From a bacterium BMS3Abin11 (GTDB lineage Bacteria; Pseudomonadota; Gammaproteobacteria; BMS3Bbin11), in the NCBI GenBank assembly GCA_002897635.1, contig BDTD01000025.1:1-64000 (forward strand): 64,000 nucleotides of DNA, written 5' to 3'. Position 1 is the stretch's first letter. The number at the start of each line of letters is the position of its first letter. Both the position numbers and the translations under genes were made by a program. Shown here one piece after another: positions 8,088 through 61,376 of this stretch. The notes beneath the pieces are model-generated. The model was not told the DNA's origin. It searched no databases and saw only the letters and a list, made by a program, of their open reading frames with translations.

Positions 8088-8155
8088 AATTGACCCGAAA
8101 CTATATCGAACCGGATTTTGCAGGTACATGATGTGCGGCCCTATCTGACCACCCT

Positions 8156-8249
8156 GTGCGAATGAATTCGCACCTACAAAAGAAGAACACCCTGCTTCAA
8201 CCCACCCGTGTCAAAAAAGAAAGAATTGTAGGTTCGAATTTATTCGAAC
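8156..8249. repeat. Pair of GTAG-headed REP palindromes
   Basis: Two short palindromes lie in the valS/thrC spacer with heads facing each other. The first is GTGCGAAT-GA-ATTCGCAC followed by CTAC (8156-8177); the second is GTAG followed by GTTCGAAT-TT-ATTCGAAC (8228-8249). A GTAG head next to a perfect stem is the hallmark of REP elements moved by RAYT transposases. The stems differ (GTGCG against GTTCG) but each stays self-complementary. The spacer may also end transcription of the convergent valS and thrC genes. Confidence 0.7.
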
Positions 8250-8256
8250 AAAATAA

Positions 8257-9726: not shown

Positions 9727-9791
9727 TGTTTTTCCAGAATCTGTGTCCGAAGCTGGATTCTAACGCAGGAAACGCTGATTTACATTACTGG

Positions 9792-9950
9792 GGAACCTCT
9801 GATCTATTCATGAACTCATATCTTACGCCTAAAATATCCAGTTTTTTCGTTGTAAGCCTTCGCAATAGCTAGCTATTACGTGCAATTTACGCCTCAAACC
9901 TGAATATTTTAGATCGCAATCTACTTCGTCCAGAATTGATCAGAGGTTCC
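9792..9950. mobile_element. 159-bp palindromic MITE, subfamily A copy 1
   Basis: The element has terminal inverted repeats beginning GGAACCTCTGAT and is nearly palindromic over its whole length, with a perfect core (CAATAGCTAGCTATT) at its exact centre. It is flanked by a 4-bp direct duplication, CTGG (9788-9791 and 9951-9954). It lies upstream of thrC and downstream of the beta-barrel gene. It has no coding capacity, so movement would need a transposase in trans. Copies at 47200 and 61078 have the same length and ends. Confidence 0.88.
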
Positions 9951-10011
9951 CTGGTTATTCGATTAGCTCCTGGAGTCACAAGAATCAAAACAAGTTATTT
10001 TTGCCAGCTCT

Positions 10012-23447: not shown

Positions 23448-23522
23448 AGGGTTAAAAGCACAGGAAAGGGGAAAGGAAGGTCAAAACCTGGGTGGTTCAA
23501 ACTTGATGGAATTGAATATTCT

Positions 23523-23573
23523 GTAGGTGCGAATTCATTCGCACTGTTTTTGTCCGAATGAATTCGAACCTAC
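23523..23573. repeat. REP pair (BIME)
   Basis: GTAG followed by GTGCGAAT-TC-ATTCGCAC (23523-23544), then an 7-bp spacer, then GTCCGAAT-GA-ATTCGAAC followed by CTAC (to 23573). The two units face outward, one being the inverse of the other. They are the same element type as at 8156-8249. Confidence 0.7.
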
Positions 23574-23651
23574 AATTTTCTCTGATCTTGTAGTTGATGT
23601 TGATCTTATAATCCCGTTCAGGCTTGCCGAGCACAGGATGAGTGGGGTTTC

Positions 23652-33405: not shown

Positions 33406-33714
33406 ATGTCTACACTTCATACCATAAATAAATCACCGTTTGACCGTAACAGTTTAGGCAGTTGTCTGAGAGTCATCAGCGACAGCGACGCCATTCTGTT
33501 GATTGAAGACGGTATCTATGCAGCAACATCAGGCACCATCTTTTCCGATGTTGTTAAAGCTGCCGTACAATCGCATTCCGTTTATGTGCTCGGCCCTGAT
33601 CTCAGTGCTCGTGGCATGAAAGAAGACGGTATCGTAGAAGGAGTCAACGTTGTTGATTATGAAGGTTTTGTTGATCTCGTCACCGAGTATGACAAAACAA
33701 ACAGCTGGCTTTGA
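33406..33714 (+). CDS. dsrH: Sulfurtransferase complex subunit DsrH
   Basis: DsrH is the TusB-like subunit. The 102-aa product carries a cysteine at residue 20 (SLGSCLRVISD), the position conserved in Allochromatium vinosum DsrH, and ends VNVVDYEGFVDLVTEYDKTNSWL, typical of TusB/DsrH. A GGAG site precedes the ATG. Its stop codon lies four bases before a short MITE derivative. Confidence 0.96.
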   Translation: MSTLHTINKSPFDRNSLGSCLRVISDSDAILLIEDGIYAATSGTIFSDVVKAAVQSHSVYVLGPDLSARGMKEDGIVEGVNVVDYEGFVDLVTEYDKTNSWL

Positions 33715-33717
33715 ACT

Positions 33718-33767
33718 GGGAATCTCTGATGTGTCTGGACGAGTTCATGAATTGTTTAGAGATTCCC
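33718..33767. mobile_element. 50-bp internally deleted MITE inside the dsr operon
   Basis: It begins GGGAATCTCTGAT and ends TTTAGAGATTCCC. The interior joins the left arm of a subfamily A element (TCTGGACGA) to its right arm (GAGTTCATGAATTG), as in the full copy at 47200 with the middle deleted. No clean 4-bp target duplication survives. The 12-bp inverted ends form a hairpin between the dsrH stop and the dsrC ribosome site (AGGAGG at 33794). Confidence 0.7.
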
Positions 33768-33804
33768 TTGTACTAATTATTAATTCATTATTCAGGAGGC
33801 TAAC

Positions 33805-34137
33805 ATGCCTATAGAAGTAAACGGAGTATCCCACGAAACAGATGAAGAAGGTTACCTGATAAACTTGGGTGACTGGAGCAGAGAACTCGGTGAAGCGCTG
33901 GCTGCAGCTGATGATTGTGAACTCACCGATGCCCACTGGGAAGTTATCAAATTCCTGCGTGAGTATTATGAAGAATACCAGATCGCACCTGCAGTGCGAG
34001 TGCTGACCAAAGCAATCGGCAAACGGCTTGGTAAGGACAAAGGGAACAGCAAATATCTTTACGAACTGTTCCCTTACGGCCCGGCAAAGCAGGCTTGTAA
34101 ATATGCAGGCCTGCCTAAGCCTACAGGCTGCGTCTAA
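33805..34137 (+). CDS. dsrC: Sulfur-carrier protein DsrC
   Basis: DsrC is the TusE-like sulfur carrier and the physiological substrate of DsrAB. The 110-aa product ends KQACKYAGLPKPTGCV, with the two conserved C-terminal cysteines at residues 98 and 109, eleven apart, the pair used for trisulfide chemistry. The start has an AGGAGG site. DsrC is normally made in excess over the rest of the operon, and here it lies behind a hairpin element, so transcript processing or a separate promoter is possible. Confidence 0.98.
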   Translation: MPIEVNGVSHETDEEGYLINLGDWSRELGEALAAADDCELTDAHWEVIKFLREYYEEYQIAPAVRVLTKAIGKRLGKDKGNSKYLYELFPYGPAKQACKYAGLPKPTGCV

Positions 34138-34228
34138 TAAGAACCTGATCAGTGGGAGGGGGACACCAGTCCCCTTCTCATTTCATTGAATTATTTATTT
34201 TGACCTTTTTACTGGGGGCTTCAGAGAC

Positions 34229-34969
34229 ATGTCATTCCTGACAATACTCTTCGCAACATTATTTTATTTTGCAACCGCCGTATTACTTTTTGGCGTTGGT
34301 TATAAAATCTGGCAATATGCGATTACACCCGCACCACTAAAGATCCCGGTAATGCCCGCGCCGATTACAAAATTAGGTGTAGTTCTACGCATGACCGAGG
34401 AAATAGTCCTCTTTAAAAGCCTGTTCAAATCTAATAAATGGATCTGGATTTTTGGATGGATGTTTCATCTTGCACTGTTACTGGTGCTTCTGCGACATCT
34501 ACGTTATTTCCAGGAGCCCGTCTGGTGGTGGGTAAACCTGATTCAGCCATTTGGTAAGTATGCTGGCTTTGCCATGGTTATCGGCTTACTTGGCCTGATT
34601 ACACGCCGTATAGTTGTCGCGCGTGTACGGTATATCACTGCACCTTCCGATCATTTGATGTTAATACTGATAATTTCCATTGCCCTGACCGGTCTGGCAA
34701 TGAGATACATTTTACGTACTGACATAGTTTCTGTAAAAGCATTTATGCTTGGTCTTTTGTATCTGGATGTGCAGCCTATTCCGACTGACTGGCTGTTTCT
34801 TACCCATATAACACTGGTTATCTCATTGCTACTGGTATTTCCGTTCAGCAAGTTGCTGCACGTACCCGGCGTTTTCTTCAGTCCTACCCGTAACCAGGTG
34901 GATGACGCACGTGAAAAAAGACACATAGCAAACTGGGCGGTCAAGCTAGACGCTACCAGAAAGAGTTAG
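34229..34969 (+). CDS. dsrM: DsrMKJOP membrane subunit DsrM
   Basis: DsrM is the NarI-like diheme cytochrome b subunit of the DsrMKJOP complex, linking DsrC redox chemistry to the quinone pool. The 246-aa product has about five hydrophobic segments and conserved His residues in WMFHLALLLVLLRHLRYF and ITHITLVISLL-like stretches (LTHITLVIS). The length matches sulfur-oxidiser DsrM. Dsr genes from here to dsrP are tightly packed. Confidence 0.95.
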   Translation: MSFLTILFATLFYFATAVLLFGVGYKIWQYAITPAPLKIPVMPAPITKLGVVLRMTEEIVLFKSLFKSNKWIWIFGWMFHLALLLVLLRHLRYFQEPVWWWVNLIQPFGKYAGFAMVIGLLGLITRRIVVARVRYITAPSDHLMLILIISIALTGLAMRYILRTDIVSVKAFMLGLLYLDVQPIPTDWLFLTHITLVISLLLVFPFSKLLHVPGVFFSPTRNQVDDAREKRHIANWAVKLDATRKS

Positions 34970-47041: not shown

Positions 47042-48095
47042 TTCACCACAGGGCCACTTCTGAAATTGTCGCCACATTTAAATATACGGAGCGGATGTCC
47101 CACCCAGCCTTATTTCTACAGTCACTGATGCAGTCATCGAACAAGTCATTGAATGGCAATCATGCCCCCTTGATTCAGTTTACCCCATCGTTTATCTAGG
47201 GAACCTCTGATTAATTCTGGACGAAGTAGGTTGCGATCTAAAATATTCAGGTTTGAGGCGCAAATCACACGTAATAGCTAGCTATTGCGAAGGTTTGCAA
47301 CGAAAAAACTGGATATTTTAGGCGTAAGATACGAGTTCATGAATTGATCAGAGGTTCCCTAGGCTGTATCGTACTCAAGATTCGACAGGATAAGCAGGTT
47401 ATCAATAAAGCCTTTTATCTTGCCCTGGGTGTAAACCTGGAAGGCCATAAAGAACTATTGAGCATGTGTCTCTCAGAAAATGAGAGGGCTTAGTTCTGGC
47501 TCACCGTTCTAACAGAGCTTCAGAATCGAGGTGTAAAAAATATCCTGATCGCCTGTGTTGACGGGTACTTTAAAAGGCTTCCCGAATGCCATTACCACCG
47601 TTTTCACTGAGGCTCAGATCCAGCTGTGTATCGTGCACATGGGGATACATGGGGCGGGTTATAATACAATTCGATGAAGTTTGTGCCCTGGAAAGGCTAC
47701 AGGGCCGTCGCCGCTGATTTAAAGAGATATACCGATCAGCCACTGAAGAGGAAGCACTGCTCGTTCTCGACAGTTTGCTGACCACTGGGATGATAAGTAC
47801 CCACTGGTCAGTAAATCCTGGGTAACCATTGGGAGAATCTCAGCGCCTTGTTCAATTACCCTCTGGACACCAGAAAGGCGATCTATACGACCAACGCCAT
47901 CGAGTCGCTGAACAGTGTCATTCGCAAGGCAACGAAAAAGAGGGGGCTGTTTCCAACGGATGACTCTGCAAAAAAGTCATTTATTTAGCGATTCAGCAAG
48001 CCTCCAAAAAATGGGCGATACCCATTCGAAATTGGAAGGCTGCACTGAACAGGTTTATGATTGAGTTCGAAGATCGGTTAACCGATTACATTTAA
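47042..48095 (+). pseudogene. IS256-family transposase pseudogene interrupted by a MITE
   Basis: Decayed IS256/mutator-type DDE transposase. Readable segments are TSEIVATFK; IYGADVPPSLISTVTDAVIE, then WQSCPLDSVYPIVYL (to 47199); after the insert GCIVLKIRQDKQVINKAF and YLALGVNLEGHKELL; then, with frameshifts, NILIACVDG and QLCIVHM; and near the end YTTNAIESLNSVIRKATKKRG, then WKAALNRFMIEFEDRLTDYI to TAA at 48095. The text after the stop (ACGCAAAATTAATTACAGACC) resembles an IS256 right end near 48131. The frame is broken in at least three places and by the 159-bp element. Confidence 0.88.
47200..47358. mobile_element. 159-bp palindromic MITE, subfamily A copy 2, inside IS256 pseudogene
   Basis: It starts GGAACCTCTGATTAATT and ends AATTGATCAGAGGTTCC, with a CTAG duplication on both sides (47196-47199, 47359-47362). 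Removing the element and one CTAG restores continuous transposase reading (..PIVYL-GCIVLK..). The arms and central palindrome match copies 1 and 3 in inverted orientation. Confidence 0.92.
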
Positions 48096-52062: not shown

Positions 52063-52118
52063 GGGCACCTCTATTTATTCTGGATAATCCAGTATTACTA
52101 AATCTATTAGAGACTCCC
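52063..52118. mobile_element. 56-bp MITE derivative abutting panB
   Basis: The left end GGGCACCTCTATTTATTCTG matches subfamily B; the right end ATCTATTAGAGACTCCC is its inverse with changes. No clean target duplication is seen. Its last base immediately precedes the panB ATG, so the panB ribosome-binding region is made of element sequence. Confidence 0.6.
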
Positions 52119-52934: not shown

Positions 52935-52991
52935 TACAGAGTTTTCAGTTTTCGGAGAATTCAACGGTCTTTCTTTTTTCTGAACACTGAA

Positions 52992-53041
52992 GGGCACTCT
53001 ATTAATTCATGAATAATCATCTTGAATTAACAGAGGTACCC
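52992..53041. mobile_element. 50-bp internally deleted MITE, subfamily B
   Basis: GGGCACTCTATTAATTC, then ATGAATAATCATCTTG as in the B copy at 20557, joined directly to AATTAACAGAGGTACCC. It is flanked by TGAA on both sides (52988-52991 and 53042-53045). It lies between the convergent panB and SLC13-type genes. Confidence 0.78.
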
Positions 53042-56248: not shown

Positions 56249-56316
56249 AACCATGTTTTATATTTTACGGATTAGGGTTTACGTAAAACATAAACCGTAA
56301 CACCTAAAACGGTTTA

Positions 56317-61044: not shown

Positions 61045-61077
61045 TATGTGTTGCTATTTTTAAACCCTTAATGTTAA

Positions 61078-61236
61078 GGAACCTCTGATCAATTCATGAA
61101 CTCGTATCTTACGCCTAAAATATCCAGTTTTTTCGTTGCAAACCTTCGCAATAGCTAGCTATTACGTGCGATTTACGCCTCAAACCTGAATATTTTAGAT
61201 CGCAATCTACTTCGTCCAGAATTAATCAGAGGTTCC
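61078..61236. mobile_element. 159-bp palindromic MITE, subfamily A copy 3
   Basis: Ends GGAACCTCTGATCAATTC and its inverse; TTAA on both sides (61074-61077, 61237-61240). Nearly identical in the arms to the copy at 9792. It sits 140 bp from a subfamily B copy; the gap (61241-61376) holds nothing I recognise. Confidence 0.9.
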
Positions 61237-61376
61237 TTAATGCATTGTTAATCAGAGGCTCACAGGATATTAACATGACTGGACAAGCTGCCGAAATTAC
61301 AGATAGTTCTCAGGCTTAATCAAATTACCATTGCTGTCTACGATGTCTATCTTGAGTTTTCTCCTATATCACTTAA

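Follow-up and report, generated by a model that had tools for sequence, protein, structure and literature searches.

The 50-bp hairpin that lies between dsrH and dsrC in the window (the whole stretch of 64,000 nucleotides that was analysed) is well supported, by comparison of sequences, as an internally deleted MITE of subfamily A and as being of mobile origin. We consider the 50-mer a tolerated relic of that MITE whose effect on mRNA processing is modest at most (probability about 0.6); a regulatory role is not favoured by the sequence comparisons.

The hairpin occupies positions 33718-33767 of the + strand, with sequence and coordinates verified to the base, and starts 3 nt past the dsrH stop. 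By Pfam, its neighbours are two DsrE/F-like genes (both DsrE-like), dsrH (33406-33714, + strand; Pfam DsrH, E 1.8e-30), dsrC (33805-34137, + strand; Pfam DsrC, E 2.2e-45) and a dsrM-type gene (34229-34969). In the predicted RNA fold (MFE -20.6 kcal/mol), 12 pairs including one G-U (33718-33729 with 33756-33767), with three G-C pairs at the base, close a loop of 26 nt. Between the hairpin and dsrC lies an A+U-rich linker (33768-33804, + strand), identical in the congener G003 and including the dsrC Shine-Dalgarno sequence (CAGGAGG) about 27 nt 3' of the hairpin. The folding energy of the hairpin is unremarkable on its own (coding) strand (z -1.2 to -1.4). Within the 11.7-kb operon region, only three loci, the hairpin among them, combine a 12-bp arm with a loop no longer than 30 nt. 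No Rfam covariance model matched the dsrH-dsrC spacer at E-values up to 1.

When the spacer was compared with the genome (G000, 2.67 Mb), nt 33739-33768 matched the right ends of many full elements (88-90 % identity, E about 6e-5), and the left arm (the left 24 nt of the spacer query) matched the left ends of other elements (96 %, E about 2e-4). By these genome matches the left stem arm (GGGAATCTCTGA, 33718-33729, + strand) is the left TIR of subfamily A, with its closest left arm in the variant L027, and the right stem arm (33756-33767, + strand) is the right TIR, as the alignment also indicates. The loop (GAGTTCATGAATTG, 33730-33755, + strand) comprises the remaining left end of the MITE, the deletion junction and the remaining right end. 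At the junction stands ACGA (33739-33742, + strand), a 4-bp microhomology in which the left-end and right-end matches overlap in the alignment. Full elements carry ACGA in both ends (left GGACGAAG, right TACGAGTTC), so a single 111-bp microhomology deletion would yield the 50-mer. Both parent ends are found in order around a deletion junction, as in an internally deleted MITE. The preliminary description had derived a 50-bp hairpin between dsrH and dsrC from two subfamily A ends, and the coordinates and both end matches agree with it.

The dsr copy is flanked by CT and TT, as in G003, and these flanks form no intact target-site duplication (TSD). The TSD was either lost with age or never present, and the 50-mer was therefore filed as a relic and not as a mobile MITE. 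The lack of an intact TSD, together with a left arm that differs from the common MITE copies at 11-12 of 25 ungapped positions, speaks for a non-MITE hairpin of independent origin with a chance likeness to the TIRs, but such an origin is hardly credible: the left side differs from the L027 variant at only 2 of 25 positions, with GATGTGTCTGG in common, the right side differs at 3 of 27 from the common form found in many copies, the two ends match separately and in the correct order, and the MITE sequence includes 14 bp of the loop as well.

The parent family was characterized by targeted searches of G000 with the spacer and with the full element at 47199-47359. With the latter as query, about 38 copies or large fragments of subfamily A were found. 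The full element is 161 bp long, begins with GGGAACCTCTGAT and ends with its inverted repeat. Full-length copies lie in the window at 47199-47359 (+ strand; the reference copy, with TA flanks), 61077-61237 (- strand; missing from the orthologous G003 site) and 9791-9951 (- strand). Of the 23 copies scored, 19 had TA on each flank, the pattern of a target-site duplication, and the TIR GGGAAYCTCTGAT occurred 118 times in the genome with at most one mismatch (0 for the reversed control pattern). Subfamily A has the properties of a MITE: it is multicopy, too short for a transposase, bounded by TIRs and a TSD, and variable in presence between relatives. Among 29 full elements with usable flanks, 19 have co-directional ORFs on either side when ORFs are called crudely, so a position between co-directional genes is normal for the subfamily. 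A search for an autonomous partner within the DDE_3 (IS630-type) transposase family found none in G000 and one in the genus, and the subfamily A MITE had no match among plasmids.

Several related repeats were also observed. A second size class has subfamily A TIRs about 264 bp apart (G000:C7:34515-34778 and several similar pairs, for example C4:31606, C6:89491, C7:85470, C18:24141, C18:101887 and C18:165466). A perfect 26-bp palindrome (GGAACCTCTGATTAATCAGAGGTTCC, L149, G000:C12:36692-36717) consists of two subfamily A TIRs with almost nothing between them, and this is the only comparably short TIR-TIR palindrome in G000 besides the dsr 50-mer. At 52991-53041, a palindrome of about 51 bp with subfamily B ends (GGGCACTCTATTAATT...AACAGAGGTACCC) is apparently an internally deleted subfamily B element, and it is not in G003. 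Another small inverted-repeat family (GTGCGAATTCATTCGCACCTACA), unrelated to MITE subfamilies A and B, has several copies including 8155-8253 and 23519-23583.

In congener G003 the hairpin occupies the same site; its junction and flanks are identical, and 3 of its 50 positions differ (G000 to G003: 33724 C>T, 33731 G>A and 33765 C>T). Both stem changes (33724 and 33765) preserve pairing as G-U in G003, and in the fold predicted for G003, which is weaker (-15.6 kcal/mol), the change at 33731 creates an additional pair. Where the flanking DNA is comparable, the MITE pieces of the window at 52063, 52997, 55340, 61077 and 61383 are missing from G003, and G003 holds a subfamily A copy near window positions 56250-56316, where the window has none. 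Since copies were gained or lost both ways between the two genomes and the dsr copy is common to them, the family has been mobile and the dsr copy is old. As shown by sequence for two species, the dsr hairpin is common to at least two species and was kept through their split.

The spacer comparison is one of G000 with G003: the contigs of G005 and G007 stop at the dsr operon or dsrC, or close to them, and that of the close relative SZUA-140 (QIGV01000086.1, L117) ends inside dsrH, with the remainder not found in the SZUA-140 genome. The hairpin was not found in about 50 distant dsr operons. The same sequence in distant species without MITEs, which had been named beforehand as an argument against a mobile origin, is absent there, in favour of such an origin. 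A second dsr operon binned with G003 (contig C76) has a dsrH-dsrC spacer of 33 nt without the MITE hairpin. This divergent operon (L181, about 69-73 % DNA identity) may be a genuine second operon or result from wrong binning.

The history of the relic would begin with a 161-bp element of the L027-like sublineage that inserted just past the dsrH stop in an ancestor of G000 and G003. The inserted element would then have lost 111 bp between its two ACGA repeats, which left its ends back to back. In the dsr transcript, the 50-mer is predicted to fold as an intercistronic hairpin. The operon would tolerate this hairpin because it stands between two translated genes, is followed by no U-tract and leaves the dsrC ribosome site equally accessible. 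Its effect is probably nil or small, that of a barrier slightly altering the decay or processing of the dsrEFH and dsrC mRNA segments. In this it resembles REP/BIME intercistronic hairpins, which are likewise short palindromes between operon genes and potential decay barriers; unlike them, the dsr hairpin is a single derived copy and not one of hundreds of REP units. Sequestration of the dsrC ribosome-binding site by the hairpin was considered and is not supported, as the unpaired probability of the RBS region was 0.62 with the hairpin and 0.63 after its in silico removal.

The step between DsrC and DsrMK is more plausibly set by a separate hairpin after dsrC (34151-34182, + strand), which has a strong 14-bp stem and is not MITE-derived. 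When spacers were folded in 52 non-redundant dsr operons (window and G003 included), the dsrH-dsrC spacer had a median length of 37 nt and reached a folding z below -2 in one operon, and the dsrC-dsrM spacer did so in 28; in 33 operons the latter formed a stem of 8 bp or more. When equal 70-nt stretches 3' of each dsr gene were compared (window and G003 excluded), z fell below -2 in 27 of 54 cases after dsrC versus 0 of 62 after dsrH; the counts for the other genes were 11/42 (A), 4/59 (B), 8/63 (E), 0/59 (F), 3/59 (M), 1/43 (K) and 3/35 (L). A hairpin after dsrC thus recurs, with differing sequence, in most of the gammaproteobacterial sulfur-oxidiser dsr operons compared, and it is missing in small-genome marine types with very short spacers. 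Among the papers available to our search, none on a stem-loop at dsrC-dsrM was found. For the DsrC/DsrMK step the post-dsrC hairpin makes the stronger candidate, possibly as an attenuator or 3' stabiliser setting the DsrC excess.

That DsrC is abundant, a premise of the preliminary description, is sound: one DsrC is among the most abundant Endoriftia proteins (PMC7787665), and in the Solemya symbiont, as cited in the same source, the DsrC transcript ranks first among sulfur-metabolism mRNAs. The same description had called the dsrH-dsrC spacer the one place where expression changes, and this is not supported. In Allochromatium vinosum, dsrEFH and dsrC transcripts both exceed dsrA (as cited in PMC3397948), so dsrH-dsrC is not known as an expression step, and the recurrent structure lies 3' of dsrC.

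The divergence of the spacer was compared with that of the genes. At four-fold sites, G000 and G003 differ by 27 % in ten other dsr genes, by 8 % in dsrH and by 10 % in dsrC. The hairpin (3/50) is less divergent than the four-fold sites of the ten other genes (p=0.0004) but not than those of dsrH plus dsrC (9/97; p=0.75); it evolves no slower than adjacent synonymous sites. The whole dsrH-dsrC spacer (3/90) also falls well below the 27 % seen elsewhere (p about 1e-8), with 0/40 changes outside the hairpin and 0/37 in the linker alone. Divergence between G000 and G003 dips locally over 33406-34228 (dsrH, spacer, dsrC and the following spacer), and this can be a recombination tract or strong, expression-linked codon constraint. 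As the dip extends over the flanking genes, the low divergence of the hairpin is not evidence for the hairpin itself. Low spacer divergence and stem changes that keep G-U pairs count against the relic, and they could reflect selection for structure.

Such selection would fit a co-opted hairpin that segments the mRNA, as the preliminary description had proposed. The hairpin would cap the 3' end of dsrEFH or the 5' end of the dsrC mRNA and raise DsrC; cleavage in the A+U-rich linker or exonucleases would be involved, and together with the 3' hairpin it would frame and stabilise dsrC. We regard this as possible but doubtful. The position between dsrH and dsrC, the low divergence of the whole spacer and its unchanged linker, the two stem substitutions that keep pairing with a third change that adds it, and the hairpins on both sides of dsrC are all consistent with it. 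On the other hand, dsr operons of other species and the one binned with G003 do without the hairpin, two of two stem changes would keep pairing as G-U by chance with a probability of at least about 0.25, and adjacent synonymous sites are equally conserved. A 12-bp stem is also short for RNase III. Known precedents, reviewed in PMC10969869, are provided by Correia elements, with RNase III, and by ERIC, with RNase E. Domestication of a shrunken MITE, which would frame dsrC on its 5' side and act together with the post-dsrC hairpin, is unlikely; if it were true, a transposon relic would serve this lineage in tuning a core energy operon.

A transcription attenuator or pause site, causing partial termination or RNA polymerase pausing after dsrH, is very improbable. 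It would draw on the 12-bp stem and the three G-C pairs that close it, but the tail TTGTACTAATTATT is not a U-tract, the loop is 26 nt long, and a terminator scan (loops of 3-8 nt only) made no call at the hairpin. The same scan does call the hairpin after dsrC. Moreover, attenuation ahead of dsrC would give less DsrC, not more. An outward promoter for dsrC in the MITE end deserves just as little credence: MITEs of other bacteria carry promoters (PMC10969869), and the A+T-rich linker does not differ between G000 and G003, but no sigma-70-type match was found on the + strand within the spacer.

The relic can be placed beside known systems, as they appear in PMC10969869. In Coxiella burnetii, the copies of QMITE1/QMITE2, likewise a MITE family, grade in size down to 39 bp, and QMITE2 copies that have lost TIRs and DRs resemble REPs. 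The QMITE sequences are unrelated to the one found here, and the dsr short form retains both TIRs and lies inside a core energy operon. The Chunjie MITE of Geobacter uraniireducens similarly has a copy within a metabolic (phosphate uptake) operon and many partial copies elsewhere; that operon copy has the full length and was active recently, whereas the dsr copy is an internally deleted relic common to two species. Neisseria Correia/NEMIS and Yersinia ERIC also place TIR hairpins within transcripts, between or after genes. Their effects (RNase III, RNase E, IHF or promoter) were shown by experiment, whereas any effect of the dsr hairpin is putative, and its stem is shorter.

The hairpin thus offers a relatively dated case in which a MITE insertion in a core energy operon would have decayed to a bare hairpin and been kept across a species split. 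Two questions that the preliminary description had merged are kept apart by this result, the origin of the element, which is answered, and the cause of the DsrC excess. For the latter, the analysis points to the post-dsrC hairpin, which is directly testable and recurs across distant sulfur oxidisers.
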